64,000 nt of DNA from Promicromonospora sp. AC04 (GTDB lineage: Bacteria > Actinomycetota > Actinomycetes > Actinomycetales > Cellulomonadaceae): the NCBI RefSeq assembly GCF_003058225.1, contig NZ_QBUG01000008.1, forward strand, positions 62,001 through 126,000, read 5' to 3'. This document shows, piece after piece, positions 34,258-57,946 of the stretch; the stretch's first letter is position 1, and each line of letters opens with the position of its first letter. A program made the position numbers and the translations under genes. Under the pieces are notes generated by a model that had not been told where the DNA came from, did no database searches, and saw nothing but the letters and a program-made list of their open reading frames with translations.

Positions 34258-34290
34258 TGCGGATCCAAGTATGCTTAGATTGCATCCAAT
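34258..34290 (+). promoter_or_regulatory. Paired GntR-type sites, promoter 1 of the catabolic regulon
   Basis: TGCGGATCCAAG (34258-34269, 8/12 to ATTGGATCCAAT) and ATTGCATCCAAT (34279-34290, 11/12), 21 bp apart, 47 bp before the phosphotriesterase-like start. Confidence 0.65.
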
Positions 34291-34336
34291 ATTCGTGCCG
34301 GGTGAGGTCGATCCCCGGCGATTGAGGGGTGCACGG

Positions 34337-35359
34337 ATGATTCACACGGTCCTCGGCGCGGTCGACGCCGCAGATCTCGGCACGGTGAGCATGCACGAGC
34401 ACCTGTTGACCGACGCGAGTGCGCTGGTGCGGCGAGGGGTCCAGGACCTGGACGCCGATCAGCCGGTTACGTCCGAGCTTGCCGGTGCTCTGCGCTGGAG
34501 TCAGCTTGGGCTGTCCGACAACCTGCGCCTCGACGATCCAGAGCTGCTCTCCGATGAGCTGCTCCTCGCTGCCCAGGCTGGCCTGCGCGCCGCTGTCGAC
34601 CTCAGCTCATTCGGCTTCGGGCCCGACCACTCGCGCCTACCTGCACTGGCCCGCGCCGCAGGCGTGCATCTCGTCGCCGGATACGGCGCCTATCTGCCCC
34701 GGCTCCTTCCTGGCTGGTTCGTCGACCTCGATCTGGATGGGCGGGAAGCGCTCTTCGAGCGTGCACTCATCGAGGCGATCCCGGGCGTGGGCTACACCGC
34801 CGGGATCCTCGGCCTGATGGGGACGACGGAGGCATTCAGTGCCCCCGAGGGGGAACAGGAACGGATCAGCCTCACTGCCGCGGCTCGCGCCGCCGCGCGC
34901 ACCGGCGCGGCCGTGACAGTACGGCTCGCGGCTGATGCTCGTAACGGCCTCAAGGTGCTCGAGCACGTGCTCACCGAGGGCGTCGCGGTAGACCGGGTGA
35001 TCATCGCGACCGTCGACGAGTTTCTCGACCTGTCCTACCTGCGTGATCTCGGTCAGTCCGGCGCGGTGCTGGAGCTCTGCTTCGGCAACGAGGGCTCGCA
35101 CGTCGGCCGGATTCGCAACGCGAGTGATCCACAGCGCCTCGACGCACTGCTCGAGCTGCTCGCCACGGAGCCTGACTTCCGGTGGGTGCTCGGACACGCC
35201 ACCTGGACCAAGAGCCAGTTGCGCCGATTCGGCGGTCCCGGCTTCGAACACCTACCCGCCCGCGTCCTGCCGGGGCTGCGCGCCCTTGGCGTGCCGCAGG
35301 AAGTGCTCGACCGGATGAGCGTCCAAGAGCCGGCCCGCCTGCTCGACCGCGCCGGCTGA
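34337..35359 (+). CDS. Phosphotriesterase-like protein, apparently degenerate
   Basis: 340 residues. The start VLGAVDAADLGTVSMHEHLLTD (metal-binding H20/H22) and the end WVLGHATWTKSQLRRFGGPGFEHLPARVLPGLRALGVPQEVLDRM match the phosphotriesterase-related family. Between them, the usual metal residues are missing: the carboxylated-lysine strand reads GYTAGILGLMG, the S-V-H strand reads AAVTVRLAAD, and the G-H-x-D strand reads VIIATVDEF. Either an altered metal centre or a non-catalytic/binding role. ATG 34337 is chosen over far-upstream starts because those run through the regulatory sites. 47 bases before the aldehyde dehydrogenase, probably one operon. Confidence 0.8.
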   Translation: MIHTVLGAVDAADLGTVSMHEHLLTDASALVRRGVQDLDADQPVTSELAGALRWSQLGLSDNLRLDDPELLSDELLLAAQAGLRAAVDLSSFGFGPDHSRLPALARAAGVHLVAGYGAYLPRLLPGWFVDLDLDGREALFERALIEAIPGVGYTAGILGLMGTTEAFSAPEGEQERISLTAAARAAARTGAAVTVRLAADARNGLKVLEHVLTEGVAVDRVIIATVDEFLDLSYLRDLGQSGAVLELCFGNEGSHVGRIRNASDPQRLDALLELLATEPDFRWVLGHATWTKSQLRRFGGPGFEHLPARVLPGLRALGVPQEVLDRMSVQEPARLLDRAG

Positions 35360-35406
35360 CGGCGACGTCCCCCCACCCACACCCGCACCGCCTCGGAGGA
35401 TTCCTC

Positions 35407-36861
35407 ATGAGAGACCAGCTCACTCCCCTCGCCCCAGTCGAGCCGTACCTCGTCGACGGCGCCTGGCTCGCCCCGGACGGTGCCGAGCTGCTCGACGTGA
35501 TCGATCCCGCCACCGAGGAGCTCCTGACCCGGGTGCCCCAGGCAGGAGCCGCCGAGATCGAGACAGCCGTCGCGTCCGCCCGGCGTGCCCACCAGGACCG
35601 ACGGTGGAGCGGCATGAGCCCGCACGACCGCAGCCGCGTGCTGCACCGCGTGGCCGACCTCATCGAGGAGCGGCTCGAAGACCTCGCGATCCTCGAGACG
35701 CGCGACAACGGAAAGCCGATCGAGCGCTCCCGCGCCGACACGGCGACGTCCGCACGCGTCTTCCGCTACTACGCCGGTGCGCCCTCGCGGCTGACCGGCG
35801 CCGTCGTCCCGGTCGACGGCGGTGCGCACCACGTCTACACGACGCTCGAACCCGTCGGCGTCGCCGCCCTCATCCTGCCCTGGAACTTCCCCGTCATGAC
35901 CGCCAGCTTCAAGCTGGCCCCGGCGCTCGCGGCAGGCTGCGCGGTGGTGGTGAAACCGGCCGAGCAGACGCCGCTGACCATGCTGCGGCTCGCGGCGATC
36001 TGCGCGGAGGCCGGGGTACCGGCCGGCGTCGTCAACGTGCTCACCGGCGACGGCCGGGTAGGTGCCGCGTTGAGTGCGCACCCGGACGTCGACAAGGTCT
36101 CGTTCACGGGGAGCACCGAGGTCGGTCGCAAGGTCATGACCGCCGCGAGCGCGGACTTCAAGCGGCTCACGCTCGAGCTGGGCGGCAAGAGCCCGAACAT
36201 CGTCTTCGAGGACGCCGACCTCGACGCGGCGGTGCTGACCGCGATGCGCGCCTCGTTCGGTCACTCGGGCCAGATGTGCACGGCGGGCAGCAGGCTGCTC
36301 GTGCAGCGCTCGATCCTTGACGAGGCCACCGAGCGGCTCGCCGCGGCAGTGCGGAACGTGGCGCTCGGCGACGGCCTGGCCGGCGGTGTGACCGTCGGGC
36401 CGCTGGTCTCGGAGGAGCAGCGTCAGCAGGTGCTCGGCTACATCGAGCGGGGTCGTGCCGAGGGCGCGACCGTCGCGGTCGGCGGGGGCGTGCCGGAGCG
36501 CGAGGGCTACTACGTGGAGCCCACGCTCTTCACCGGGGTCACCAACACGATGACGATCGCCCGTGAGGAGATCTTCGGCCCGGTCGTCGGGATCATCCCG
36601 TTCGACGACGAGGACGACGCGGTGGCCATCGCGAACGACACGCACTACGGCCTGGCGGCCGGCGTCTGGACCCGCGACCTCTCGCGCGCCCACCGGATGG
36701 GGCAGCGGCTGCGAGCGGGCACGGTGTGGGTCAACACCTACAACATCTTCGACCCGGCGCTCTCGTTCGGCGGGGTGGGGGACTCGGGGCTCGGCCGCGA
36801 CCTCGGCGAGGACGCGTTGCGCGCGTTCTGCGAGCCGAAGAGCGTGGTCATCGCGCTCTGA
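35407..36861 (+). CDS. NAD(P)-dependent aldehyde dehydrogenase
   Basis: 484 residues, standard ALDH length. Catalytic C291 in GQMCTAGSR and general base E257 in LELGGKSPN; cofactor loop FTGSTEVG; substrate-tunnel PWNFPVM; C-terminal FGGVGDSGLGRDLGEDALR. Oxidises aldehydes to acids in the cytoplasm. In this island it would consume the aldehyde made by the copper amine oxidase or flavin oxidase (inference). GGAGG precedes the ATG at 35407. Converges with the RidA gene, stops 4 bases apart. Confidence 0.95.
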   Translation: MRDQLTPLAPVEPYLVDGAWLAPDGAELLDVIDPATEELLTRVPQAGAAEIETAVASARRAHQDRRWSGMSPHDRSRVLHRVADLIEERLEDLAILETRDNGKPIERSRADTATSARVFRYYAGAPSRLTGAVVPVDGGAHHVYTTLEPVGVAALILPWNFPVMTASFKLAPALAAGCAVVVKPAEQTPLTMLRLAAICAEAGVPAGVVNVLTGDGRVGAALSAHPDVDKVSFTGSTEVGRKVMTAASADFKRLTLELGGKSPNIVFEDADLDAAVLTAMRASFGHSGQMCTAGSRLLVQRSILDEATERLAAAVRNVALGDGLAGGVTVGPLVSEEQRQQVLGYIERGRAEGATVAVGGGVPEREGYYVEPTLFTGVTNTMTIAREEIFGPVVGIIPFDDEDDAVAIANDTHYGLAAGVWTRDLSRAHRMGQRLRAGTVWVNTYNIFDPALSFGGVGDSGLGRDLGEDALRAFCEPKSVVIAL

Positions 36862-36865
36862 GCCG

Positions 36866-37372
36866 TCAGTCCGCGGCCGAGCGGGGCCGGCACTCCAGGC
36901 TCAGCCAGAGCTCGAAGCAGGCGCTCCGCGACAGGGCGGTCGCGCCGATCGAGGCCCGGCCCATCCGGCCGGCCACGGGCCCGAACACGTCGAGGAAGAG
37001 ATCGCTCGCCGCGTTCGAGACCTCGTTGAGCTGCTCGAAGCCGGGCGGGCAGAGCACGAAGCAGAGGCCGCGCGAAAGTGCCACCACCTCGTCGAGCGAG
37101 CCCAGGGCGTACCGGATCATGCCCAGCGCGTTCACGGCGGTGTAGCGCGCGGCCTCCTGCGCCTGTTCGAGGGTCACCTCGACGCCGACCGATCCCGGGT
37201 GCAGGAGCGTGCCGTCCCGTGACTCGGGCGTCAGGCCGCTGAGCTCCAGGAGGTCCCCGGTGCGATGGAACGCCTTCAGCGCGCTTCCGTACCGGCCGCC
37301 GTAGGGCGGGTTCGCGTAGTCCGGGATCGCAAGGTCGAGCTCTCGCACACGGGCTTCGGGGGAGTCGGGCAT
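36866..37372 (-). CDS. RidA-family (YjgF/UK114) imine/enamine deaminase
   Basis: 168 residues. RidA fold: YGSALKAFHRTGDLLELSGLTPES, EQAQEAARYTAVNALGMIRYALGSLDEV, PPGFEQLNEVSNAASDLFLDVFG, and RMGRASIGATALSRSACFELWLSLE with the conserved Arg before the A-x-L motif. Members hydrolyse reactive enamine/imine intermediates released by PLP and flavin amine oxidases, which are encoded right beside it. Divergent from the class V aminotransferase, sharing the paired GntR-type sites. Confidence 0.9.
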   Translation of the reverse strand: MPDSPEARVRELDLAIPDYANPPYGGRYGSALKAFHRTGDLLELSGLTPESRDGTLLHPGSVGVEVTLEQAQEAARYTAVNALGMIRYALGSLDEVVALSRGLCFVLCPPGFEQLNEVSNAASDLFLDVFGPVAGRMGRASIGATALSRSACFELWLSLECRPRSAAD

Positions 37373-37407: not shown

Positions 37408-37440
37408 AATGGATACAATCAGGCTAGCATCGGATCCAGT
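37408..37440. promoter_or_regulatory. Paired GntR-type sites, promoter 2
   Basis: AATGGATACAAT (37408-37419) and ATCGGATCCAGT (37429-37440), each 10/12 to ATTGGATCCAAT and 21 bp apart. Between the divergent RidA (start 37372) and aminotransferase (start 37481) genes. Confidence 0.7.
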
Positions 37441-37480: not shown

Positions 37481-38734
37481 ATGACGATCGGCCTGGAGGA
37501 CGGCGCGTCCCTGCCCCCGGCGACTCCGGCGACCGCGGCGATCGACGTCGCCGCCGAACGCGCCCGGACGGCCGGTGCCCTGGGGCGGCGCTACTTCAAC
37601 GCCGCCGGCGCGGGCCTGATGAGCGACGCGGTGCTCGAGCGCACGATCCGCCACCTGCGCCTCGAGCACGGTGTCGGCGGCTACGAGGCCGCCAGGGCGA
37701 TGGCCGACGAGGCGGCCGAGCTCTACGAGACCGCCGCAGCCCTGCTCGGCGCGGCCGCCGACGAGATCGCCTGCTTCGACTCGGCGACCAGCGGGCTGCG
37801 CAGCATCTTCGACGCGCTGCGCCTCGGGCCGGGTGACACCGTCATCGCGCCCCGATCGAGCTACGTGAGCCAGGCGCTCCGGCTGCTCGCGATGAAGCGG
37901 CACGCCGGCGTGCGTCTCGACGTCGTGCCCAACGACGCCGCCGGGGGCATGGACCTGGAGGCGCTCGAGCGGGCGCTGGGTCAGGCGACCGGCCGCGTCG
38001 TCGTCAGCGCCGTCCACGTGCCCACCTCGTCGGGCCTCGTCGAGCCGGTGGCCGCCATCGCGGCACTCGCGCGGGACCGCGGCGCGCTCACGGTGCTCGA
38101 CGCCACGCAGTCCGTCGGTCAGATCGACGTCGACGTCCGCGCGATCGGATGCGACGCGCTCGTCACCACGGGACGCAAGTTCCTGCGCGGCCCGCGCGGT
38201 ACCGCGCTGGCCTACCTGCGCCGCGGCGTGCTCGACGGGCTCGGTACGTGGGCACCGGACGTGCGGGGCGCGGTCTGGACGAGCGCGGACGAGTGGACGA
38301 CGGACCGCACGGCGCGGCAGCTGGAGACCTGGGAGGCGGCCGTGGCCGCGCGGCTCGGCCTCGGCGTCGCGCTGCGCGAGGCGCTCGACCGGGGCATGGC
38401 CGCCACCGAGGCGCACCTCGTGCGCCTCGGTGCCGGTCTGCGCGGGGCGCTCGCCGCGATCGACGGCGTGACGGTCGCGGACCCGCCCGCCTCGCCGTCC
38501 GGCATCGTGACCTTCACGGTCGCCGGCCTGCCGAGCAACCAGGTCGTCGGCCGCCTGCGGGAGGCGCGGATCGACACCATCGCGATCCCCGCGAGCCATG
38601 CGCAGTGGGACCTCGGCACCCGCGGTCTGGACAGCGTCGTGCGCGTCTCGCCGCACGTCTACAACGACGAGGCGGACGTCGGCGTGCTCCTCGGTCGCGT
38701 GGCGGAGATCGCCACCGAGGCGACGGCACGATGA
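37481..38734 (+). CDS. Class V PLP-dependent aminotransferase / lyase
   Basis: 417 residues. Aspartate-aminotransferase fold of class V: FNAAGAGLMSDAV, FDSATSGLRSIFDALRL, cofactor D207 in VLDATQSVGQ, PLP lysine K233 in TTGRKFLRGPRGT, and C-terminal GIVTFTVAGLPSNQVVGRLREARI. Resembles the isopenicillin-N-epimerase/cysteine-desulfurase-like group with unknown substrate; no desulfurase cysteine loop is seen. AGGAAGG before the ATG at 37481. Its stop overlaps the flavin oxidase start (ATGA), opening a five-gene run with no gaps to 44820. Confidence 0.9.
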   Translation: MTIGLEDGASLPPATPATAAIDVAAERARTAGALGRRYFNAAGAGLMSDAVLERTIRHLRLEHGVGGYEAARAMADEAAELYETAAALLGAAADEIACFDSATSGLRSIFDALRLGPGDTVIAPRSSYVSQALRLLAMKRHAGVRLDVVPNDAAGGMDLEALERALGQATGRVVVSAVHVPTSSGLVEPVAAIAALARDRGALTVLDATQSVGQIDVDVRAIGCDALVTTGRKFLRGPRGTALAYLRRGVLDGLGTWAPDVRGAVWTSADEWTTDRTARQLETWEAAVAARLGLGVALREALDRGMAATEAHLVRLGAGLRGALAAIDGVTVADPPASPSGIVTFTVAGLPSNQVVGRLREARIDTIAIPASHAQWDLGTRGLDSVVRVSPHVYNDEADVGVLLGRVAEIATEATAR

Positions 38735-39876
38735 GCACGATGAACAGGCACGACGCCATAGTCCTCGGGCTGGGCATCCACGGGTCCGCCGCGGTCTACG
38801 AGCTCGCGCGGCGCGGCTTCGACGTCGTCGGCATCGACCGCTTCGCACCGGGCCACGCACGCGGGTCCTCGCACGGTGCCACGCGCATGTTCCGCCGCGC
38901 CTACCCCAACCCCCTGTGGAACGACCTGGTCGAGCGCGCCCACCGCGGCTGGGAGCGCTGGGGCGCCGACGACGGCGCGCCCTTCCTCCACCCCACCGGC
39001 GGCCTCTACGCCCACCGGGGCATGCCGACCATGCAGGGCGGCCGCAGCCGGCCCGTCGAACGGGCCGAGGTGGGCGCCGTCGCCCCCTCCCTGCGGCTCC
39101 CGCAGGGGTACGGTGCCGTCCACGACCCGGACGCCGGTGTCCTCGAAGCCGCCCGTGCGCTCGCCCACGCCCAGGCCGGTGCGCTCGGGGCAGGTGCGAC
39201 GCTGCGCTTCGAGGAGTCGGTGCTGGGCTGGACAGTGGAGCACGGGACGGCGGAGCACGGGACGGCGGAGCACGGGACGGCGGAGCACGGGACGGTGACG
39301 GTACGGACCGACCGGGGCGAGCTGCGCGGCCGCCGTCTGGTGATCGCCGGCGGTGCGTGGGTACCGCGCCTGCTGCCTGCGACGGCGGGCTTCTTCGAGG
39401 TCTGGCGGATCGTGACCTTCACCGCGCCGACCGGGCAGCCCGTCGCCCAGCCGCCGGCGCTCGGCTGCTTCTCGGTCGACCTGCCGGAGGGGCTCGTCTT
39501 CGGGCTGCCCGAGGCGGCCGGCTCCGGCGCGAAGATCGGTCTCGATGCGGGGCCGGTCTGGGACCCGGAGGTCCCCGTTGCTCCGCCGACCGACGCCGAG
39601 GCCGAGCACCTCGCCGGCCTGCTGCGCCGGTTCGCGCCGGGTATCACGACAGACGGCGGCGAGGCCGCCGCCTGCCTCTACACGATGACGCCCGACAGAC
39701 GCTTCGTCCTCGGAGCGCTGCCCGGCCGTCCGGAGGTGATCGTCGCCGCCGCGTGCTCCGGACACGGCTTCAAGTTCGGCCCGGCGATCGGCGAGGCGGT
39801 CGCCGACCTCGTCGCCGGCGTCGACCGGCCCGACCTCGCGTTCCTGGACCCCGCACGGATGGTGACCGCAGCATGA
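38731..39876 (+). CDS. MSOX-type FAD-dependent amine oxidase
   Basis: 381 residues. FAD-binding GLGIHGSAAVYELARRG, GIDRF and GSSHGATRMFRRAYP, as in monomeric sarcosine / N-methyltryptophan oxidases; ACLYTMTPDRRFVLG supplies the cysteine that carries FAD covalently in this family, and SGHGFKFGPAIGE closes the fold. Oxidises a secondary or N-methylated amine with O2 to imine/aldehyde and H2O2. Odd feature: four EHGTA repeats around residues 170-189, from 15-bp tandem repeats. Coupled to both neighbours by ATGA overlaps. Confidence 0.93.
   Translation: MSTMNRHDAIVLGLGIHGSAAVYELARRGFDVVGIDRFAPGHARGSSHGATRMFRRAYPNPLWNDLVERAHRGWERWGADDGAPFLHPTGGLYAHRGMPTMQGGRSRPVERAEVGAVAPSLRLPQGYGAVHDPDAGVLEAARALAHAQAGALGAGATLRFEESVLGWTVEHGTAEHGTAEHGTAEHGTVTVRTDRGELRGRRLVIAGGAWVPRLLPATAGFFEVWRIVTFTAPTGQPVAQPPALGCFSVDLPEGLVFGLPEAAGSGAKIGLDAGPVWDPEVPVAPPTDAEAEHLAGLLRRFAPGITTDGGEAAACLYTMTPDRRFVLGALPGRPEVIVAAACSGHGFKFGPAIGEAVADLVAGVDRPDLAFLDPARMVTAA
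39238..39297 (+). repeat. Four 15-bp tandem repeats inside flavin oxidase gene
   Basis: GAGCACGGGACGGCG at 39238, 39253, 39268 and (two-base variant ending GTG) 39283, encoding EHGTA-EHGTA-EHGTA-EHGTV. In-frame copy change would be tolerated by the reading frame. Confidence 0.95.
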
Positions 39877-41432
39877 CAACCCCTGACCGCATCGCCGTCG
39901 CCGCCCCGCACCCGGCGGCCGTGGACGCCGCCGCGGAGGCCGTGGCGGCCGGCGGCGGCACGATCGACGCGGCGCTCGCCGCGGCGACCGCGCTCACCGT
40001 CGTCTACCCGCACCAGTGCGGGATCGGTGGTGACCTCGTCGCGCTCGTGCGGCGCCCCGGCCACGGCGTCGTCGCGGTGCTCTCAGCGGGCGCCGCCCCT
40101 GCCGGGATCGACGCCGCGGCCCTCGCCCGCGACGAGCGAATGCCACGGCAGGGCGCCCAGACCGTCACGGTGCCCGGCGCGGTCGCCGGCTGGGAGACCA
40201 TCGCGGGGCTCGGCGCGCGGCTCGGTCTCGCGGCACCGCTGCGCCGCGCCGCGGGGCTCGCGGCCCAGGGCTTCCCGATCTCGCCAGGACTGGCCCGGGC
40301 GATCGCGACCCGCCGCGGCGAGCTCCTCGCCGACGAGGGCCTGCGCGAGGTGTTCGGCGACGGCGACGGCGGCCTGCTCGGCGAGGGCGACACGCTCGTC
40401 CAGCCCGCGCTCGCCGCCACCCTCGCCGAGCTCGCGGAAGACCCCCGGTCCATGTACGAGGGCCGCATCCCCGAGTCCCTCGCGGCCCGGCTGCGGTCGC
40501 TGGGCGGTGCGCACACCGCTGCGGACTTCGCGGGGCACCGCGCCGAGCTGCTGGAGCCGGCCACTGTCGAGGCGGGCGGAGTGCGCTGGTCGGTGGCCCC
40601 GCCGCCCAGCCAGGGTGTCGTGCTGCTCGGCATCCTTCCCGAAGCGCTCGACGGCGACACCGCGGAGCTCGTCGAGGCGGTGCACGAGGCGGCGCTCACC
40701 CGCCAGGCGCGGCTCGGCGATCCGCGGGGCGGCGCGATCGACGTCGCGGCGATGCTCGATCCGCGCGGACGCGCCGGCGACGGGGCGCTCCCGCGTGCCG
40801 GCCGCGCCCTGGGCGACACCGTCGCCGTGACCGCCGCGGGCAGCGACGGCACCGTTGTCACCCTCATCCAGAGCGTCTACCAGCTGTTCGGGTCCGGCAT
40901 CCTCGACCCCGCGACCGGCGTCGTGCTGCACAACCGCGGCTCCGCCTTCAGCACCGATCCCGCCCACCCGGGCCGCGTCGGCCCGGGCCTGCGGCCGCCG
41001 CACACCCTGCTGCCGGTCATCGCGGAGTCCGACGGGCTCGTGGTCGGCCTCGGCTGCCAGGGCGGCAGCGCTCAGCCGTGGATCCTCGCGCAGGTCGCCC
41101 GCGACCTGCTCGACCGCACCACGGACCCGGCGGAGGTGCTCCTGCGCCCGCGCTTCGTCGTCGGCTCGCGCGACCTCGGCCACGAGGTGATGACCCTGGT
41201 GGCCGAGCCGGGCGTCGGCGACGCCGTCACCGCCGCCAACGAGCTCGGCCTGCCGGTCGCCCGGGCCGACGGGCCGATCGACGAGGCGGGTCACGTGCAG
41301 ACCGTGCGCCTGCACGCCGACGGCCGGCTCGACGCCGCGAGCGACCCCCGCGCGGACGGGCGAGCGCTCGTCCTCGACGCCCACGGACCAGCACCCCGCA
41401 CACGACCCCGGTACCCGAAGGAAGAACCATGA
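39873..41432 (+). CDS. Gamma-glutamyltransferase-family (Ntn) hydrolase
   Basis: 519 residues, family length. N-terminal block AAPHPAAVDAAAEAVAAGGGTIDAALAAATALTVVYPHQCGIGGD, processing-site region with the likely nucleophile T316 in ALGDTVAVTAAGSDGTVVTLIQSVYQLFGSG, and C-terminal PPHTLLPVIAE...GCQGGSAQPWILAQV. GGT enzymes self-cleave before this threonine and hydrolyse or transfer gamma-glutamyl groups. No signal peptide is present, unlike most GGTs, so it probably acts in the cytoplasm, perhaps releasing an amine from a gamma-glutamyl-amine for the oxidases beside it (inference). Confidence 0.9.
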   Translation: MTTPDRIAVAAPHPAAVDAAAEAVAAGGGTIDAALAAATALTVVYPHQCGIGGDLVALVRRPGHGVVAVLSAGAAPAGIDAAALARDERMPRQGAQTVTVPGAVAGWETIAGLGARLGLAAPLRRAAGLAAQGFPISPGLARAIATRRGELLADEGLREVFGDGDGGLLGEGDTLVQPALAATLAELAEDPRSMYEGRIPESLAARLRSLGGAHTAADFAGHRAELLEPATVEAGGVRWSVAPPPSQGVVLLGILPEALDGDTAELVEAVHEAALTRQARLGDPRGGAIDVAAMLDPRGRAGDGALPRAGRALGDTVAVTAAGSDGTVVTLIQSVYQLFGSGILDPATGVVLHNRGSAFSTDPAHPGRVGPGLRPPHTLLPVIAESDGLVVGLGCQGGSAQPWILAQVARDLLDRTTDPAEVLLRPRFVVGSRDLGHEVMTLVAEPGVGDAVTAANELGLPVARADGPIDEAGHVQTVRLHADGRLDAASDPRADGRALVLDAHGPAPRTRPRYPKEEP

Positions 41433-47085: not shown

Positions 47086-47092
47086 CCGCGGC

Positions 47093-47108: not shown

Positions 47109-47209
47109 ACACCGCGAAATCAACCGCGCAGAGGATGGCGGCACGGACGGCTCGTGCGCGCCAGGGCGCACCACTACCCCTTCACGATCGTCCCGGAAGG
47201 AACTACGTC

Positions 47210-49222: not shown

Positions 49223-49255
49223 ATTGGATGCGTACTTGGCTATATTGGATCCAAG
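49223..49255 (+). promoter_or_regulatory. Paired GntR-type sites, promoter 5
   Basis: ATTGGATGCGTA (49223-49234, 8/12) and ATTGGATCCAAG (49244-49255, 11/12), 21 bp apart, 80-112 bp before the Dpp-type binding protein. A GTAAT-n6-GTAAC pair (49204-49219) just upstream weakly resembles a GlnR half box on the other strand. Confidence 0.75.
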
Positions 49256-49334: not shown

Positions 49335-50900
49335 ATGGCTAGGAAGAGCACTGTTGCCGGCGTGATGCTGGCGGTGGTGAGCCTCGCGCTCACCGCATGC
49401 GCCGGAGGCGCGTCCGGCACCGAAGCCGCGCCGACCGACACGATCAACGCGGAGCTCTGGTACGCGCCCGCGACCTTCGACCCCGCGCGGGCGTCCGCGA
49501 CCGCGGACGTGAACGTCGCCCGGCTCGGCTTCGACACCCTGCTGCGTCAGGGCGAGACCGAGGGGTACATGGGTGGGCTCGCATCGGAGTGGGAAGCGGT
49601 CTCGGCCTCGGAGTACGTCTTCACCCTCCGCGACGACGCGACCTGTGCCGACGGTACGGCCATCAGCCCGTCGGTGGTCGCGAACTCGTTCGAGTACCTC
49701 GTGGGCCTCGACGACCCGGGTGCCCAGACCTGGAAGAACCAGGCGTTCGGCCCGGGCGAGCCGACCTTCACGCCCGACGACGAGGCCGGCACGCTCGACA
49801 TCACGCTCAGCGAGCCCTACTCGCAGCTGCTCGGCGGCGTCACCCGACCGGGCACGGGAATCATCTGCCCCGCCGGTCTCGAGGACCCCGAGGGGCTCGC
49901 CGCCGGTACCGTCGACGGCGCCTGGTCGGGCCCCTACACCCTCACCGACTTCTCGGCCGGTGTGAGTGCCACCTACGCGCTGCGCGAGGGCTACGACCAG
50001 TGGCCCGCCTGGGAGAGCGTCGAGGGCGAGCCCGCCGCGACCATCAACCTGACGGTGCAGTCCGACTCCAACACGAGCGCCAACCTCCTGGAGTCCGGCG
50101 GCGTCGACGTCGCGCGCTTCTACGACTCCAACGCGCTGCGCTTCGAGGACGACGACGCCTACAACACGGTCACGTTCGCCAGCTCCGCGTACAACCTCGT
50201 GTTCAACCAGGCCCCGGGATCCGGTTCGGTCTTCGAGGGCGACCAGGAGCTGCGCACCGCCGTCGCCCAGGCCATCGACCCGCAGGGCTTCAACGACGCG
50301 GGCCTGGACGGCCTCGGCGTCGCGCAGTACACCGTGAACTCGGCGAGCTACGCCTGCGCCCTCGAGGAGCCGGCACTGCTCCAGGAGTACGACCCCGCTG
50401 CCGCCGCCGACGTGCTCGACGGCCAGACCATCCGCCTGCTCATCATGAGCAACTGGGACCCGGCCGCGGACTTCCTCGCCGAGTCGCTGCGCGCAGCCGG
50501 CGCCACCGTCGAGGTCTCGGCGCCGGACCCCGCCGACTGGACCGCCCAGATGCGCACCGAGCCCAAGACGTGGGACGTCGCGGTCGCCGCGGAGAACGCC
50601 GAGACCGGGCTCATCCACACCTCGATCTCCCGGTACCTCGGCGCGACCTACCCCGAGGGCGGCACGAACGTCGCGTCGACCGACAACCCCGAGGGCGTGG
50701 AGCTGTTCGAGGCCGGCATGAGCGCCGACGACCCCGACGAACAGTGCGAGAACTTCCTCGCCGCCCAGCGGTCGATCCTCGAGCGGGTGGACATGGTTCC
50801 GCTGGTCACCGACAGCCACCGCTACGTCGCCCGCGAAGGCTTCGCGACCTACGTGTTCTCGGGCTACTGGGACATCTCCGCGATGCGCATCCTCAGCTGA
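49335..50900 (+). CDS. Dpp/Opp-type substrate-binding lipoprotein
   Basis: 521 residues. Signal with lipobox LTAC (lipid cysteine about residue 22), then an SBP_bac_5 fold: ATFDPARASATADVNVARLGFDTLLRQG, FTLRDDATCADGTAISPSVVANSFEYL, WSGPYTLTDFSAGVSATYALREGY, and the C-terminal lobe ending DISAMRIL. Such proteins bind peptides, opines, nickel or other small polar compounds. Heads the importer operon 49335-54519; GGAGG precedes the start. With amidase and amidohydrolase genes all round, an amide-containing or peptide-like substrate is likely (inference). Confidence 0.94.
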   Translation: MARKSTVAGVMLAVVSLALTACAGGASGTEAAPTDTINAELWYAPATFDPARASATADVNVARLGFDTLLRQGETEGYMGGLASEWEAVSASEYVFTLRDDATCADGTAISPSVVANSFEYLVGLDDPGAQTWKNQAFGPGEPTFTPDDEAGTLDITLSEPYSQLLGGVTRPGTGIICPAGLEDPEGLAAGTVDGAWSGPYTLTDFSAGVSATYALREGYDQWPAWESVEGEPAATINLTVQSDSNTSANLLESGGVDVARFYDSNALRFEDDDAYNTVTFASSAYNLVFNQAPGSGSVFEGDQELRTAVAQAIDPQGFNDAGLDGLGVAQYTVNSASYACALEEPALLQEYDPAAAADVLDGQTIRLLIMSNWDPAADFLAESLRAAGATVEVSAPDPADWTAQMRTEPKTWDVAVAAENAETGLIHTSISRYLGATYPEGGTNVASTDNPEGVELFEAGMSADDPDEQCENFLAAQRSILERVDMVPLVTDSHRYVAREGFATYVFSGYWDISAMRILS

Positions 50901-50943
50901 GGTCGCCAGGAGTCGCAAGGACCGGAACGCCGAGAGGAAACCC

Positions 50944-51990
50944 ATGAGCACGCTGACCGCCGAGCCGTCCACGGCACCCGACCCGGGCGCCCCCGGCCCG
51001 AACGGCGCCCCGGGCGCCGCATCCCTGGCCGGGGCCTGGCGCAGGTTCCTCCTGCGCCGGGCGGGCGGGCTCGCGGTCAACCTCGTGCTGCTCCTGCTCG
51101 TCACGTTCCTGATCGTGCAGCTCATCCCCGGCGACCCGGCCGTCGCGATCGCCGGCGAGAGCGCCACCCTCGCGCAGGTGGAGCTCGTGCGTACGCAGCT
51201 CGGGCTGGACCAGCCGCTGCTGGTCCAGCTCGGGACCTACTTCGCCGGCGTCGTGCAGGGCGACTTCGGGGACTCCTACCGGTACCGCGTCCCCGCCCTG
51301 GACGTCGTGGCCGCGGCGGTGCCGTTCACCCTGAGCATCACGCTCATCGCGGTGCTGCTCCTCCTCGCGCTCGGGGTCGCGCTCGGCATGGGGGTCGGCG
51401 TCGCCACGCGCGGAGACCGCCACCGGTGGCTGGACCTGTCGTTCAACCTGGTGACCGGCCTCGTCTCGTCGGTGCCGACGTACGTCATGGCCACGGCCCT
51501 GGTGGCCGTCTTCGCGATCACGCTGCGCTGGCTGCCGCCCGCGTACTCGCCCGCCTACGGTTTCGGCCAGGCGGCGATCCTCCCGATCGCGGCACTGACC
51601 ATCAGCGGTACCTGCTCGGTCGCCAGGATCGTGCGCCGGGAGACGGCGGTCATCCTCGAGCAGGACTACATGCGCACAGCGCGCGGATGGCGCCTGCCCG
51701 CACTCTCGCTCTATGCCAAGCACATGCTGCCGAACCTGCTGACCACGGCGCTGACACTCTCGGGCATCATCCTCACCGCGCTGCTGGGCTCGGCGCTCGT
51801 CACCGAGGCGGTCTTCGCCTGGCCCGGCCTCGGCGGCGTCATCGTGCAGGCGATCGCTATCGACAAGGACTACCCGGTCATCCGGGCCGCAGTCTTCGTC
51901 ATCGGGCTGATCTCGCTCGTCATCACCCTGGTCATCGACGTCATCCTGGGTCTCATCGACCCGCGCACCCTCGGAGAGAAGCGTGGCTGA
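50944..51990 (+). CDS. Dpp/Opp-type ABC permease (DppB-like)
   Basis: 348 residues. Six membrane helices (first about residues 42-60), family N-terminus VNLVLLLLVTFLIVQLIPGDPAV, DQPLLVQLGTYFAGVVQGDFGDSYRY, and the EAA loop VILEQDYMRTARGWRLPALSLYAKHMLPN. Forms the membrane channel with the permease half of the next protein, whose GTG start overlaps its stop by 8 bases. GAGAGGAA before the ATG. Confidence 0.95.
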   Translation: MSTLTAEPSTAPDPGAPGPNGAPGAASLAGAWRRFLLRRAGGLAVNLVLLLLVTFLIVQLIPGDPAVAIAGESATLAQVELVRTQLGLDQPLLVQLGTYFAGVVQGDFGDSYRYRVPALDVVAAAVPFTLSITLIAVLLLLALGVALGMGVGVATRGDRHRWLDLSFNLVTGLVSSVPTYVMATALVAVFAITLRWLPPAYSPAYGFGQAAILPIAALTISGTCSVARIVRRETAVILEQDYMRTARGWRLPALSLYAKHMLPNLLTTALTLSGIILTALLGSALVTEAVFAWPGLGGVIVQAIAIDKDYPVIRAAVFVIGLISLVITLVIDVILGLIDPRTLGEKRG

Positions 51991-53749
51991 CTCCATCCCC
52001 TCCGTCATCCCCTCCGTCACTTCCTCCGTCGGGACACCGTCCGTCGGGTCCGCACCGACCGGGCGGCCCCGCGCCTTCGCCTGGAACGCCGGGCTGGTCG
52101 TCGGCCTCGCCATGCTCGGTGTCGTGGCGATCGTCGCGGTCCTCGCGCCGATCGCACTCGGCACACAGGCGTCCGGGATCGGCGGCACCCCGAACCTCGG
52201 ACCCGCACCGGGCCACCCGCTCGGCACCGACTCCCTCGGACGCGACATGCTCGCCCGAACGCTGGTCGCCACCCGGTCCACGGTCCTCATGGCGCTCGCG
52301 GCGACGGCCCTCTCGGCCGTCGCGGGCATCACCTTCGGCGTCGCCGTCTGGCTCGCACCCCACCGCCTGCGCGAGCTCGGGCTGCGGGCCATCGAGCTCG
52401 CCGTCAGCTACCCGACGATGCTCGTCGCGATCATCGTCGCGGCGATCCTCGGCCAGGGCATCGTGCAGGTGGTCGTGGCGATCGCGATCGCCAACATCGC
52501 CGGCTTCGCCCGGCTGACCGCCAACCTCGCCGCGCGGATCGCGTCGAACGAGTACGTGACCACTGCCCGTCTCATGGGTGTGCCGGCCCATCTCGTCGCG
52601 ACCCGCCACGTGCTGCCGAACATGGCAGAGCCCACGCTCATCCTCGTGGCCGGGGCCTTCTCGGGTGCGCTCGTCGAGATCTCCGGCCTGTCGTTCATCG
52701 GCCTCGGCGCCCAGACGCCGGCCTTCGACTGGGGCACGCTGCTCAACGACGGCCTGAGCAAGATCGTCATGAACCCGGTGGTGGTGGTCGGCCCGGCCGT
52801 CGCGCTCACCTTCACCTCGCTCGCGGCGCTGCTCGTGGGAGACGGGCTCGCCGCTGCGGCCAACCCGCGCTCCAACACTACGCGCTCCCGCCTGGTCCGC
52901 GGCATGGGCACCCCGTCCCCGGGCACCGGTGAGGAGGACGCCGTGCTCGTCGCCGACGGCATCCGCGTCGAGCACGGCGGCTCCGGCCGCGAGCTCGTCA
53001 AGGACGTCTCGTTCACGATCCGCCGCGGAGAGGTGCTCGGCATCGTGGGCGAGTCCGGCTCGGGCAAGTCGCTCACCGCCTCGGTGGTCGCCCAGCTCGT
53101 CGGCGAGGGGCTCACCGCCTCCGCGCGCCGGCTCGAGCTCGGCGGCACCGACCTGCTCGGCCGGGTGCCCGCGACCACGCTCGCCCAGCGTGTCGGCCTG
53201 ATCTACCAGGACCCGGGCACGGCGCTGAACCCCGCCCTCAGCCTGGGCAGCCAGCTCTCCGACGTGCTGCGCGTCCGGCTGCGGCACAGCCGGCGGGCCG
53301 CTACCGACCTGCTGCTCCAGAAGTTCCGCTCGGTGCTGCTCCCGGACCCCGAGGGCCGGCTGCGCCAGTACCCGCACCAGCTCTCGGGCGGCATGAAGCA
53401 GCGCGCCATGATCGCCTCGGCGATGAGCACCGGCCCCGACCTCATCATCGCCGACGAGCCCACCACCGCCCTCGACGTCACCGTGCAGCGCGAGGTGCTC
53501 ACGGTGCTCAAGCGGATGAACCGCGAGTCCGGGACGGCGGTGCTCTTCATCTCGCACGACCTCGGGGTGGTGCGTGCCCTGTGCGACCGCGTGCTCGTGA
53601 TGAAGGACGGCGAGATCGTCGAGCAGCTCGACGACGTCGCGGCGCTCTCCGGGGCGACCGTGGCGCACCCGTACACGAAGCAGCTCCTCGCTGCGACCCC
53701 GGCCGTCACGGTGACCGGCGCGAACGACACGACGGAGGCGCGGGTATGA
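51983..53749 (+). CDS. Fused DppC-type permease and DppD-type ATPase
   Basis: 588 residues. Residues about 30-300 are a DppC permease (HPLGTDSLGRDMLARTLVATRST; EAA loop YVTTARLMGVPAHLVATRHVLPNMAEP; LSFIGLGAQTPAFDWG). A linker at about 300-312 leads to an ABC ATPase: Walker A GESGSGKS, Q-loop IYQDPGTALNP, signature LSGGMKQR, Walker B LIIADEPTTALD, switch H in ISHDLG. The fusion is known in actinomycetes but not the rule. Ser/Val/Pro-rich N-terminal 25 residues are low complexity. The reading frame is continuous across the junction, so it is a true fusion and not a missed stop. Confidence 0.94.
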   Translation: MADSIPSVIPSVTSSVGTPSVGSAPTGRPRAFAWNAGLVVGLAMLGVVAIVAVLAPIALGTQASGIGGTPNLGPAPGHPLGTDSLGRDMLARTLVATRSTVLMALAATALSAVAGITFGVAVWLAPHRLRELGLRAIELAVSYPTMLVAIIVAAILGQGIVQVVVAIAIANIAGFARLTANLAARIASNEYVTTARLMGVPAHLVATRHVLPNMAEPTLILVAGAFSGALVEISGLSFIGLGAQTPAFDWGTLLNDGLSKIVMNPVVVVGPAVALTFTSLAALLVGDGLAAAANPRSNTTRSRLVRGMGTPSPGTGEEDAVLVADGIRVEHGGSGRELVKDVSFTIRRGEVLGIVGESGSGKSLTASVVAQLVGEGLTASARRLELGGTDLLGRVPATTLAQRVGLIYQDPGTALNPALSLGSQLSDVLRVRLRHSRRAATDLLLQKFRSVLLPDPEGRLRQYPHQLSGGMKQRAMIASAMSTGPDLIIADEPTTALDVTVQREVLTVLKRMNRESGTAVLFISHDLGVVRALCDRVLVMKDGEIVEQLDDVAALSGATVAHPYTKQLLAATPAVTVTGANDTTEARV

Positions 53750-54519
53750 GCGCGAACATGGTCGAGGTGCGCGGGCTCGACGTCACCTTCGGCGACACGC
53801 GGGTGCTGCACGGCGTCGACCTCGCGCTGGCCAAGGGCCGCACGGTTGGCGTCGTCGGCGAGTCCGGCTCGGGCAAGTCGACCCTCGCCAAGGTCCTCGT
53901 CGGAGCCGTGCCCGCCGCGACCGGCCAGGTCGAGGTGGACGGGGTCGACGTCGTCGGGGCCGGCCGCGCGGCCCTGCGCGCCTACCGCCGCCGGATCCAG
54001 ATGATCCCGCAGGACCCGTACTCGTCGCTCTCCCCGCGGCGCACCGTCGGCCAGGCGCTCGCCGAGGCCGTCGACCCGGTGCGCGCCCGCGTGGCGGACC
54101 ACGAGGAGCTCATCGTCTCCTGGCTGGAGCGGGTCGGCCTCACCGCGGACATGCTGCACCGCTACCCGCACGAGTTCTCCGGCGGCCAGCGTCAGCGCAT
54201 CGCCATCGCCCGGGGCCTCATCATCGACCCGCACCTCGTGATCGCCGACGAGATCACCTCCGCGCTCGACGTCTCGGTCCAGGCCCAGATCCTCGACCTG
54301 CTCGCGGAGATCAAGACCGCCATGGGCCTGACCATGATGTTCATCTCGCACAACCTCGCAGTGGTGCAGCGCGTGAGCGACGAGGTGCTCGTGCTGTACC
54401 GCGGGCAGGCCGTGGAGTCCGGCCCGGTCGAGCGCATCTACGCCGATCCGCAGCACTGGTACACCCGTCGCCTGCTCGACGCGGACCCGGGATCTCCCGG
54501 ATTCAGCCTGGCGAGCTGA
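53746..54519 (+). CDS. Dpp/Opp-type ABC ATPase (DppF-like)
   Basis: 257 residues. Walker A GESGSGKST, Q-loop MIPQDPYSSLSPRRTVG, signature FSGGQRQR, Walker B LVIADEITSALD (Ile where Pro is usual), H-switch MFISHNL. Second ATPase of the importer, paired with the C-terminal half of the fusion protein. ATGA overlap with the fusion gene. Its C-terminus is short, without the long oligopeptide-binding tail of OppF. Confidence 0.95.
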   Translation: MSANMVEVRGLDVTFGDTRVLHGVDLALAKGRTVGVVGESGSGKSTLAKVLVGAVPAATGQVEVDGVDVVGAGRAALRAYRRRIQMIPQDPYSSLSPRRTVGQALAEAVDPVRARVADHEELIVSWLERVGLTADMLHRYPHEFSGGQRQRIAIARGLIIDPHLVIADEITSALDVSVQAQILDLLAEIKTAMGLTMMFISHNLAVVQRVSDEVLVLYRGQAVESGPVERIYADPQHWYTRRLLDADPGSPGFSLAS

Positions 54520-54550
54520 GCTCCATCCGATGACCGAGAGGAGCGGCACC

Positions 54551-55801
54551 ATGTCCGCCCGCGTACCGCACGTCCCCGTCGCCCAGGGGACCACCCGCTT
54601 CGTGGGTGCCACGCTGATCGACGGCACCGGTGCGCCGCCGTCGGCCGACGCCGAGGTGGAGGTCCGCGACGGCGTGCTCACCTACGCGGGCCCGCGCCGG
54701 CCGGACGCCGACGGCGCGGTGCGCACCGTCGACCTGTCGGGCAGCTTCCTCATGCCCGGGTTCGTGGACGCGCACGTGCACCTCGCGATGCTGCCGCACC
54801 CGCCCGAGACCCAGCGCCAGTGGTTCCCCGAGGAGGGAGCGCTCGAGGTCGCCGCCGCGCTGCGCTCCACGCTCCTCGCCGGGGTCACCACCGCGCGGGA
54901 CCTGGACGGGCTGACCCCCGGGTACCGCAACGCCATCGCCCACGGCACGACGACCGGGCCCCGCCTGCACCTGGCGATCGCGATGCTCTCGCCGACGGGC
55001 GGGCACGCCGATCCGGTGCTCCCCAACGGCACGCTCCCGGCCTGGGCGACCCGGTCCGGCATGCCGGCGGCCGGCATCGTCGACACGGAGGACGACGTCG
55101 TCCGGACCGTCCGCGAGCTGGTGCGCACCGGCGCGGACGCCATCAAGGTGTGCACCTCCGGCGGCGTCGGATCGCCGAACGACCTGCCCGGCGACGCCGG
55201 GCTGCCCGTGGAGCACGTGCGGCTCATCGCCGAGCTGGTCGCCGCGCGCGGCGGCCGTCCGATCACGGCGCACGCGCTCACCGACGCGGCCGTGCGGGCC
55301 GCCGTGCTGGGCGGCGCGGCGAGCATCGAGCACGGCTACGACCTGAGCGACGCCACGATCTCGCTCATGCTCGAGCACGGCACCGTGCTCGTGCCGACGC
55401 TCAGCACCCTCATGCGCGAGCTCGACCCGTCGACGACCTCGCCCGAGCGGCTGCGGGACCGTGCGGAGCTGCAGCGGCGGGGGCTCGACGCGGTACGCCG
55501 GGCGGTCGCCGCGGGAGTGCCGGTCGCCCTCGGTACCGACGCGGGCGTCCACCCGCACGGCCGCAACCTCCGGGAGCTGGCCTGGCTCGTCGAGGCGGGC
55601 CTCGACCCGCTCGCGGCGATCCGGGCAGGCACCCTGCAGGGCGCCCGGCTGCTCGGGCTCGACGAGCACCTGGGCTCGGTGGAACCGGGCAAGCTCGCCG
55701 ACCTCGTGGTGACCACCGTGAACCCGCTCACGGCGATCGACCGGATGGCGGACGACGGAGCGGTGACCATGGTCGTGCAGGCCGGCCGGGTGCTCGGCTA
55801 G
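54551..55801 (+). CDS. Imidazolonepropionase/prolidase-like amidohydrolase
   Basis: 416 residues. Composite beta-sandwich and TIM barrel: TRFVGATLIDGTGAPP, PGFVDAHVHLAM with H75/H77, a bridging lysine in DAIKVCTSGGVGS, ITAHALTDAAV, ASIEHGYDLSD, and catalytic Asp in ALGTDAGVHPHG. Members hydrolyse Xaa-Pro dipeptides, imides or ureides. GAGAGGAG precedes the ATG at 54551, which is 31 bases after the importer ATPase, so it belongs to that operon. Its last bases overlap a convergent small ORF. Confidence 0.92.
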   Translation: MSARVPHVPVAQGTTRFVGATLIDGTGAPPSADAEVEVRDGVLTYAGPRRPDADGAVRTVDLSGSFLMPGFVDAHVHLAMLPHPPETQRQWFPEEGALEVAAALRSTLLAGVTTARDLDGLTPGYRNAIAHGTTTGPRLHLAIAMLSPTGGHADPVLPNGTLPAWATRSGMPAAGIVDTEDDVVRTVRELVRTGADAIKVCTSGGVGSPNDLPGDAGLPVEHVRLIAELVAARGGRPITAHALTDAAVRAAVLGGAASIEHGYDLSDATISLMLEHGTVLVPTLSTLMRELDPSTTSPERLRDRAELQRRGLDAVRRAVAAGVPVALGTDAGVHPHGRNLRELAWLVEAGLDPLAAIRAGTLQGARLLGLDEHLGSVEPGKLADLVVTTVNPLTAIDRMADDGAVTMVVQAGRVLG

Positions 55802-55929
55802 CTCGACCGGCTGCCGAGGAACCCGCGCCGGCCGCCGTAGCCGGTGATGTTCTGCACGCCCTGGGTCGCGAGGGGCTCGACGAGGAAGCCCGTCCCGAGG
55901 ATCCGGTCGGCGAGGGAGACCGTGATCAT
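55798..55929 (-). CDS. Small ORF (43 aa) coupled to AtzF-like amidase
   Basis: 43 residues: begins MITVSLADRILGTGFLVEP and ends GYGGRRGFLGSRSS. The start overlaps the amidase stop (ATGA), the same coupling used between the real genes of this operon, which is the main reason to call it. No family is recognised. It is Gly/Arg-rich at the C-terminus. Its stop overlaps the convergent amidohydrolase stop by 4 bases. It could be a small amidase partner (another amidase in this window has one) or a chance ORF. Confidence 0.45.
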   Translation of the reverse strand: MITVSLADRILGTGFLVEPLATQGVQNITGYGGRRGFLGSRSS

Positions 55930-57200
55930 GGGAGGCCCCGGACGAGTGCGGCGAGCCCGTGGTCGGTGAACGCCGGCGCGACCAGCTGCGCGCCGAACGG
56001 GAGCCCGTCGACGGTCCCGGCGGGGTAGGCGAGGGCGGCGAGGTCGAGCAGGTTGGCGAAGTTGGTGAAGCGACCGAGCCGGCTGTTGACCGCGATCGGC
56101 TCGGCGGCCACCGCCGCGAGCGTGGGGTGCTCGGTAGTGGTCGGCAGCAGGACCGCATCGACCCGGGAGAAGAGCTCGCGGGCGACGACGGCCGCCTGGT
56201 CGAGGCGCTCCTGGTCCTGGAAGAGCCGCCATGCGGGGATCTCCTTGGCCCGGGCGATGATGCCCCCGACGACGGGGTCGACGTCGTCGGGGTGGGCGTC
56301 GACGAAGGCGCCGACGGCGGCATAACGCTCCGCGACGAAGGCGCCGTCGTAGAGCATCGTGGCGACCTCGAGGAGCACGGTGATGTCGACCGGGACGGGC
56401 TCGGCCCCGGACGCCGCCCAGCGGGTGGTCTCGGCGTCGAAGGCCTCGGCCCAGCCGGGTGCGAGATCCCCGAGCCGGCCGGGCAACGGGACGCCGATGC
56501 GTGCCCGGGCCGGGAGGGTGACGGCCTCACCGGCGCGGCTGAGCGGGTCTCGCCGGTCGGGCCCCGCCATGACCGCGAGGGCCGCCTCGGCGACGTCCAG
56601 GTCGGCCGACATCACGGTGACGACGTCGAGGCTGCGGCACGCGGGCACGACCCCGGCCGCGCTGACCGTCCCCCTGGTGGGCTTGATGCCGTAGAGCCCG
56701 TGGAAGGCCGCGGGCACCCGCCCCGACCCCGCGGTGTCGGTGCCGAGGGCGAGGTCCGCCACACCGAGGGCGACGGCTACCGCCGAGCCCGAGGAGGAGC
56801 CGCCGGAGATGCAGGTCGCGTCGGTGGCATGGCGCACGGGGCCGTAGGGGGAGCGGGTGCCGACCAGCCCGGTGGCGAACTGGTCGAGGTTGGTGGCGCC
56901 GAGCACGACGGCGCCGGCCGCACGCAGCCGCGCGACGGCCGTGGCGTCCTGGGCCGGCTGGTACGCGTACGCCGGGCACGCCGCCGTGGTGGCGATACCG
57001 GCCACGTCGATGTTGCCCTTCACCGCGACGAGCAGACCCGCCAGCGGCAGCTCCTGCCCGGCCGCAGCGCGTCCGAGCGTCGCGGCAAGCTCCGCTGCCA
57101 CGGCTCCTTGCGGGCGCAGCTCGATCCAGGCCTCGGGCCGAGCCCGTGCACGCTCGTACCGCTCCGCGACATGCGTCGCCGGATCCGTCATTGTGATCAT
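55926..57200 (-). CDS. Allophanate hydrolase-like amidase (AtzF amidase domain only)
   Basis: 424 residues. Triad K61 (LLVAVKGNIDVAG), S135 (CISGGSSSGSA) and S159 (GTDTAGSGRVPAAFHGLYGIKPTRG). TSAAGVVPACRSLDVVTV-like text and the end VDGLPFGAQLVAPAFTDHGLAALV are characteristic of the allophanate-hydrolase branch. Full-length AtzF (about 600 residues) has an extra C-terminal domain that decarboxylates N-carboxycarbamate; it is absent here. ATGA overlaps couple it to the cyclase before it and the 43-residue ORF after it. Confidence 0.88.
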   Translation of the reverse strand: MITMTDPATHVAERYERARARPEAWIELRPQGAVAAELAATLGRAAAGQELPLAGLLVAVKGNIDVAGIATTAACPAYAYQPAQDATAVARLRAAGAVVLGATNLDQFATGLVGTRSPYGPVRHATDATCISGGSSSGSAVAVALGVADLALGTDTAGSGRVPAAFHGLYGIKPTRGTVSAAGVVPACRSLDVVTVMSADLDVAEAALAVMAGPDRRDPLSRAGEAVTLPARARIGVPLPGRLGDLAPGWAEAFDAETTRWAASGAEPVPVDITVLLEVATMLYDGAFVAERYAAVGAFVDAHPDDVDPVVGGIIARAKEIPAWRLFQDQERLDQAAVVARELFSRVDAVLLPTTTEHPTLAAVAAEPIAVNSRLGRFTNFANLLDLAALAYPAGTVDGLPFGAQLVAPAFTDHGLAALVRGLP

Positions 57201-57892
57201 GCGTCCGCTCCGCCGCCGTCGAGGACGATCGTCTCCGGCCCCTTTCCGCTGGTCGAACCCGGCAGTGGCAGCAGCACGGTCGGCGCCGGGGCGGCCTCGC
57301 GACCCTCGAACGGCACGGGCTGGCAGACCATCAGGTAGTCGCCCGGTTCTACCTGCGCGAGGTCGGCGTTCTCGAGGATGACAACACCGGCGCCGCACAG
57401 GATGACGTGCGTGGGCCAGGCCTCGGTGTGGGCGGGCGCCTCCATCGTCATGTAGTCCAGGCCGGCGAAGACGACGTCGTGGTCGACGAGCCATTGCGCG
57501 CCGCTCGGTGCGAGGCCGACCCAGGTCTCGGACCGCGTGTTCCTGGTGAGTGCCTCGGTCGAGTTACGGGTCTTGAACAGCACGCGCGCCGCCCCCTCGG
57601 CGCCTGCCGCTTCCAGGTCTTCAGCGGTGATCTCCTCGGCCACTCCGCGGAGGTCGAGCACGCGGGTCGGGCCCACCAGATGCTCCAGCGGAATCTGCTC
57701 GACCGTCGCGCCGCCCGGTACGAAGTGGGCCGGAGCATCAACATGCGTTCCCGTGTGCGCCCCGATGAGCCAGCGCGAGACATCCGAGGGAGAGCCATCT
57801 GCGATGCGCTCGACCATCTCGAAGGTGGGGCGCCGCCCCCAGTGCAGCATCTCGGTGTGTATGGGGATGTTGATGTCGATGACGCCGGTCAT
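57197..57892 (-). CDS. KynB-like metal-dependent cyclase/hydrolase
   Basis: 231 residues. The signature HTGTHVDAPAHFVPGG supplies metal and catalytic histidines as in arylformamidase/KynB and isatin hydrolase; DINIPIHTEMLHWGRRP and the C-terminal AWPTHVILCGAGVVILENADL also match. Hydrolyses a formamide or cyclic amide. The start at 57892 has GGAGGAG upstream; a longer in-frame start at 58027 would run through the regulator sites. First gene of the leftward operon with the AtzF-like amidase. Confidence 0.9.
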   Translation of the reverse strand: MTGVIDINIPIHTEMLHWGRRPTFEMVERIADGSPSDVSRWLIGAHTGTHVDAPAHFVPGGATVEQIPLEHLVGPTRVLDLRGVAEEITAEDLEAAGAEGAARVLFKTRNSTEALTRNTRSETWVGLAPSGAQWLVDHDVVFAGLDYMTMEAPAHTEAWPTHVILCGAGVVILENADLAQVEPGDYLMVCQPVPFEGREAAPAPTVLLPLPGSTSGKGPETIVLDGGGADA

Positions 57893-57913
57893 TGGCTCTC
57901 CTCCGCACGGCGC

Positions 57914-57946
57914 AGTGGATTCTGTTTCGTGCAGATTGTATCCAAT
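57914..57946. promoter_or_regulatory. Paired GntR-type sites, promoter 6
   Basis: AGTGGATTCTGT (57914-57925, 8/12) and ATTGTATCCAAT (57935-57946, 11/12), 21 bp apart, 22-54 bp before the cyclase start and 240 bp before the divergent nitrilase-family gene. Confidence 0.7.

Follow-up and report, generated by a model that had tools for sequence, protein, structure and literature searches.

Which regulator governs a catabolic gene island in Promicromonospora sp. AC04, and what kind of operator does it read? The question is raised by six pairs of short palindromes in a 64,000-nucleotide stretch of this genome (contig NZ_QBUG01000008.1, positions 62,001 to 126,000 of the forward strand), hereafter the window; its base composition is 71.5 % G+C, and the genome measures 6.85 Mb. 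A first-pass annotation, made from the letters alone, had proposed that the pairs unite the genes between 34258 and 57946 (hereafter the island) into one regulon under a GntR-type protein encoded in their midst. We consider it likely that the pairs are the operators of this protein (44991-45683), and that two cooperative dimers bound to them would repress about 20 genes of amine or amide degradation until induced. The regulator and the predicted operators are given below in window coordinates, with the number of positions, out of 12, at which each successive box agrees with ATTGGATCCAAT.

34258..34290, plus strand: predicted operator pair 5' of the phosphotriesterase-like gene; agreement 8 and 11, spacing 21 bp; conserved ahead of the orthologue in three relatives
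37408..37440, no strand assigned: predicted operator pair between the divergent Rid gene (minus) and the operon of the pyridoxal phosphate (PLP) enzyme (plus); agreement 10 and 10, spacing 21 bp
44991..45683, minus strand: FCD/GntR regulator of 230 amino acids; Pfam GntR and FCD domains, structure model and fold search
45720..45753, minus strand: predicted operator pair closest to the gntR start; agreement 8 and 9, spacing 22 bp
45797..45829, plus strand: predicted operator pair before the amidohydrolase operon, including an exact box; agreement 12 and 8, spacing 21 bp
49223..49255, plus strand: predicted operator pair before the operon of the ATP-binding cassette (ABC) transporter; agreement 8 and 11, spacing 21 bp; kept in 11 relatives
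57914..57946, no strand assigned: predicted operator pair 22 bp 5' of the cyclase gene (minus) and also 5' of the gene at 58186 (plus); agreement 8 and 11, spacing 21 bp

Positions and spacings of these six pairs of palindromic 12-bp boxes are all as first reported. According to our gene call, 6/6 lie outside genes, i.e. in intergenic regions, in keeping with the claim that they occupy promoter regions and are absent from gene interiors. The box consensus proposed at the time stood in part: one box of most pairs fits it well, whereas the other is loose. Most pairs thus combine one good and one degenerate box, that at 45720 being the weakest.

A chance origin of the pairs was considered and ruled out by scrambled palindromes, by the profile of spacings and by scans of this genome and of 98 relatives. 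Single boxes with at most 3 mismatches number 8 in the window (7 in the island and 1 at 28052), for a mean of 2.88 in 100 shuffles, none of which reached 8. Paired boxes were scored by their summed agreement (at least 18 of 24) and profiled in the window at spacings from 12 to 60 bp: 5 pairs were found at spacing 21, 2 at 44 and 1 each at 16, 26 and 55, and 30 scrambled palindromes gave 0 pairs each at spacing 21. Genome-wide, ATTGKATCCAAT with at most 1 mismatch occurs at 6 places, of which 5 belong to the island and 1 (C12:182671) does not, and with at most 2 mismatches it gave 37 rows vs 16 for the reversed control. Twelve of 16 off-island places were scanned with 3 kb at a threshold of 16/24: weak pairs scoring 17 appeared in two (L010 and L012, the latter also with one of 16), and none was found around the remaining 10. 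The pair-core pattern GNATNC-N13-TTGNATCC gave 5 rows in the whole genome, all at four of the six island pairs, and its reversed control 0; it misses the pair at 45720 because of the spacing of 22 bp, and that at 45797 because the right box is degenerate. For a similar reason, one box being degenerate in most pairs, the pair pattern tried first had 0 matches in this genome. The genome-wide scan that the first-pass annotation had suggested thus found the paired motif not to be equally common off the island. The sole off-island box with at most 1 mismatch (G000:C12:182671-182682) reads ATTGTATGCAAT and is unpaired.

The pairs also accompany the regulator in other bacteria. We fetched 80 loci solely by similarity to the regulator, i.e. 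70 close (L019-L088, 52-85 % identity) and 10 distant (L089-L098, 31-49 %). The 70 span many actinobacterial genera, including Rathayibacter, Agreia, Curtobacterium, Microbacterium, Kineosporia, Jiangella, Pseudonocardia, Actinoplanes, Streptomyces, Nonomuraea, Demequina and Patulibacter. The control set consisted of 38 loci (274 kb), namely the ten distant ones and L101-L128, L100 being excluded as a 60 % homologue. At a threshold of 17/24 and a spacing of 20-22 bp, a pair was present in 70/70 close loci (211 pairs in total) vs 0/38 control loci of distant GntR homologues; at 18/24, it was present in 68/70 close loci (174 pairs). When spacings from 12 to 60 bp were profiled in the 70 loci, 171 pairs fell at 21, 41 at 16, 20 at 42 and 0-14 elsewhere, and 30 scrambled palindromes at 21 bp gave a mean of 0.7, the largest count, 18, coming from one that shares the GGATCC core. 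The peak at 16 resembles a register shadow of the box, that at 42 a third weak box (at most 16 cases read for each). Some transporter promoters in L019-L030 do carry a third weak box 42 bp from the outer box, and three dimers may therefore bind there.

Window and loci together provided 179 pairs whose surroundings were catalogued: 178 lie outside called genes, and the spacing is 21 bp in 168, 22 in 8 and 20 in 3. The gene 3' of these pairs is most commonly gntR (50), followed by those of the PLP enzyme (37), a Rieske oxygenase (22), its reductase (20) and the Rid protein (17), and in 59/70 loci the start of the gntR match has a pair at most 200 bp upstream. Orthologous promoters keep their pairs as well. 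In Agreia, Curtobacterium and strain PS02343 they precede the phosphotriesterase-like and cyclase genes (one cyclase pair scoring highest at a spacing of 20); 11 relatives (L019-L027, L029 and L030) have one ahead of the transporter operon, and L019-L030 have pairs in the amidohydrolase-gntR intergenic region. In the first three relatives named, the counterpart of the 57914 pair goes with the minus-strand cyclase gene. Sites, spacing, promoter position and conservation with the regulator can all be read from these sequences, and since the same 21-bp pairs accompany the close relatives of the regulator, these are very probably the sites to which it binds. By this comparison of close with distant loci and of orthologous promoters, the earlier proposal of one regulon under the island GntR protein gained support, and the predicted regulon and sites are strongly supported.

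As the pairs co-occur with the whole island and not only with the regulator, they might instead belong to another regulator encoded elsewhere. We find this hardly credible: the scanned neighbour clusters show no other recurring regulator except a TetR-type cluster in 4 loci, and in Kineosporia (L135) a pair stands just upstream of a 52 % paralogue, the 16 kb retrieved giving no match to any further island gene. This paralogue, of Kineosporia mesophila (L135, 7563-8239), perhaps represents a sister regulon sharing the operator.

Whole-genome scans point again to the island regulator. The pair-core pattern gave 53 rows (control 2) in 12 genomes that carry a locus of this type; by hand-compared coordinates, 45 of them are no more than 20 kb from a homologue of the regulator, including one beside the Kineosporia paralogue. 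Among the remaining 8 rows, 1 is on a small contig next to an orthologue of the cyclase gene, 2 are on a Jiangella contig with island orthologues and 5 are unexplained. Seven further genomes gave 21 rows (control 0), about 16 of which are apparently on the regulator's contig by coordinates. In the 98 relatives of the window genome, 20 rows were scattered without clusters over 13 genomes (control 8). The two Jiangella rows, with four pairs and orthologues of island genes, are on contig C194 of Jiangella anatolica, which is not the regulator's contig. Regulation in trans was considered for this case and dropped, Jiangella endophytica having the gene set on the regulator's contig, with the same amidohydrolase (79 % identity) about 26 kb away by coordinates; C194 therefore probably represents a fragment of that same island.

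The regulator itself bears an N-terminal GntR winged helix (PF00392, 69.1 bits for a cut-off of 27) and a C-terminal FCD domain (PF07729, 85.1 bits for a cut-off of 24.3), which places it in the FCD/GntR class; both the gene at 44991-45683 and the pair at its own promoter were correctly recognised in the first pass. In its monomer model (mean predicted local distance difference test score, pLDDT, 88.4), the wing is followed by seven helical segments, with a single residue between two of them; the C-terminal domain has six helices in the VanR group and seven in FadR. A fold search with the model returned the best E-values for PmiR and Atu1419, with modest template modelling (TM) scores, and the highest listed TM-scores for 7u5q. 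Short palindromic boxes are kept at putative target promoters in the 70 loci, as in the VanR group, and the protein is an FCD/GntR regulator resembling members of that group. Residues R45, T46, R49, H140, H186 and H208 are invariant in 70/70 aligned regulators; on general background and by analogy with passages on Atu1419 (PMC7797058), the first three may be DNA contacts and the three histidines a metal site.

From these patterns we infer binding, cooperativity, repression and an inducer as follows. Each 12-bp palindrome would take one dimer of the regulator. As 21 bp correspond to two helical turns, the two dimers would sit side by side on the same face of the DNA, touching and binding cooperatively. 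That the spacing is strict, and that good boxes are coupled with poor ones, suggests such cooperative binding, by which a good and a poor box together would make a strong site. The distance from pair to called start has a median of 39 bp (89 single-target pairs with called starts), and TANNNT occurs at offset 17 or 18, where the spacer meets the right box, in 30/89 oriented pairs vs fewer than 8 on the opposite strand, which is consistent with a -10 element lying under the right-hand dimer. At many promoters the right-hand box would overlap the -10 element, so that the bound regulator would block RNA polymerase and keep off about 20 genes, including gntR itself. A catabolite of the island substrate may bind the FCD pocket and release the regulator.

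The hexamer found where spacer and right box join (30/89 oriented pairs) also suits an arrangement in which regulator and sites are the same but the dimers make no contact: the second box would raise local occupancy, and promoter geometry would fix the spacing, one box lying on the -10 element and the other in the -35/-10 interval. We judge this unlikely, given that the spacing is 21 bp in 168 of 179 pairs despite widely varying distances to the start codon, and that many pairs lack a -10-like hexamer. Activation, known for some GntR proteins, could likewise replace repression with regulator and sites unchanged; a location near start codons, over the likely -10 element, is however that of a repressor, which makes an activator very improbable.

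Several observations weigh against repression by cooperative dimers of the island regulator. The loci are mutually related and their counts not independent, and in 11/70 the 200 bp upstream of where the gntR match begins hold no pair. In the genome scans, 5/53 rows and about 5/21 rows of the seven further genomes have no known link to the regulator, and the genome with a 60 % homologue (G068) gave 0 rows by the strict pair pattern, holding degenerate pairs only (five in 19 kb at a looser threshold of 16). At the promoters, a -10-like hexamer is present in only a third of oriented pairs, and a sigma-70 consensus scan of 45600-45900 found no promoter.

Known systems offer partial parallels. Two boxes that we take to be operators of VanR, a GntR-type repressor, stand in vanillate-promoter constructs of Caulobacter crescentus. 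In the sequence of a construct printed in PMC6538847, these are ATTGGATCCAAT and a second box, ATTGGATCCA, 39 bp apart by our own count. The likeness lies in the boxes; as far as this source goes, the spacing is 39 and not 21 bp, the pathway is that of an aromatic acid and the host is an alphaproteobacterium. Atu1419 of Agrobacterium fabrum is described, in passages of PMC7797058, as a tetrameric VanR-group FCD/GntR repressor of the 10-bp palindrome ATGTATACAT, two copies of which lie 190 bp apart, looping being proposed. It shares with the island system the matching fold, a palindromic operator overlapping the -10 element (predicted here), an autoregulated catabolic region and a conserved metal site, but differs by its tetramer and distant 10-bp palindromes, whereas the island has 12-bp boxes in fixed 21-bp pairs. 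The fold match of our monomer model might nevertheless suggest a preformed tetramer of this kind, whose two dimer arms would clamp adjacent palindromes or loop pairs of different promoters. We regard this as distinctly improbable, since the Atu1419 sites are about 10 nm apart on palindromes separated by 190 bp, and a 21-bp pair (about 7 nm) would better suit neighbouring dimers.

Cooperation between neighbouring dimers, which we prefer, has a counterpart in NanR of Escherichia coli, where three dimers bind the (GGTATA)3 direct repeat with cooperativity through a 32-residue N-terminal extension (passages of PMC8012715). Both are FCD/GntR repressors for which several dimers would cooperate on neighbouring repeats. 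NanR differs by this extension, absent from the 230-residue sequence of the island regulator: there the GntR match starts at residue 11, and the operator is palindromic instead of a direct repeat. AlkR of Pseudomonas aeruginosa, a VanR-group repressor, binds as a dimer to the -10-covering palindrome ATTGTCAGACAAT; it differs, in the passages of PMC12042122, by one main site with two weak extra ones, an alkane monooxygenase target and an acyl-CoA inducer.

In a literature search leaving most subscription papers outside its coverage, NanR was the only match for paired or tandem GntR operators, and Atu1419 and AlkR came up among the papers listed for VanR. Within partial coverage, no match was found for this gene cluster, nor any precedent for a fixed 21-bp pair at nearly all targets kept across orders, an absence that weighs little. 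The matches listed for the motif strings were mostly from unrelated fields and taken for primers, the Caulobacter construct proving relevant. As paired boxes were already in print for Caulobacter, the new part is the regulon and the fixed 21-bp phasing. Unnamed catabolic genes in dozens of actinobacteria would be gathered into a single defined regulon whose regulator is named and whose operators are predicted. Were the pair a cooperative two-dimer unit, it would join the few described multi-dimer modes of FCD/GntR regulators (the Atu1419 tetramer and the NanR triple repeat). Only tentatively, and with more doubt than confidence, do we extend this to the strictly phased two-dimer operator as the true recognition unit of a whole clade of VanR-like regulators. 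If true, the 21-bp pair would have been kept across several actinobacterial orders despite changed gene order and content of the island, and a patchily distributed catabolic island would bring along a complete cooperative switch.

The genes placed under these operators are the following.

34337..36861, plus strand: phosphotriesterase-like and aldehyde dehydrogenase genes (gene call, domain searches)
36866..37348, minus strand: Rid/YjgF-like gene (Pfam score under the curated cut-off)
37481..44820, plus strand: PLP enzyme, flavin adenine dinucleotide (FAD) oxidase, transpeptidase-like protein, copper amine oxidase and amidase
45878..49169, plus strand: amidohydrolase, cytidine-deaminase-like protein, isochorismatase-like protein and amidohydrolase
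49362..55801, plus strand: peptide-type ABC transporter (four genes) and amidohydrolase
55926..57892, minus strand: allophanate-hydrolase-like amidase and cyclase-family hydrolase

With gntR included, the predicted regulon comprises 20 genes, operon limits being inferred from gene order; the earlier estimate of about 20 agrees with this count. Phenylethylamine oxidases are the closest to the island amine oxidase among solved structures, and the substrate is probably an amine- or amide-bearing compound. The conserved set of copper amine oxidase, FAD oxidase, PLP enzyme, aldehyde dehydrogenase and amidohydrolases would mark an amine or amide degradation route, to which many relatives add a Rieske oxygenase and a glutamine-synthetase-like ligase (present in 47 and 45 of the 70 loci, respectively, with a reductase in 24); its substrate could be found via the inducer of the regulator. 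A gamma-glutamylated-amine route, considered from the ligase and Rieske oxygenase of the relatives, was not adopted after queries of the own genome: the ligase query had only 34 % matches, on another contig, and the Rieske query had no match, an empty answer that by itself shows nothing.

The island is patchily distributed, which is compatible with transfer or loss. Twelve congeners have no close amidohydrolase (best E-value 6.1e-7) and no close regulator. A plasmid origin was rejected, regulator matches in a plasmid collection being all below 60 % identity, with the best rows at about 40 %.

Some neighbouring genes deserve mention. Cluster c23 (L022:9317-9871, L026:9317-9871) is a protein of 170-184 residues with no Pfam match, found in 12 loci between amidohydrolase and gntR and located 3' of 16 pairs. 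The right edge of the regulon is unsure, i.e. the plus-strand genes from 58186 may or may not be under the 57914 pair; directly after this last pair, 58186-61755 encodes a nitrilase-family hydrolase and an NMT1/THI5-type ABC transporter. Further on, at the right edge of the window, the minus strand encodes another regulator of GntR type, HutC-like and bearing a UTRA domain (63390-64000; L143:391-1626, minus strand), beside an amidase at 62008-63414.

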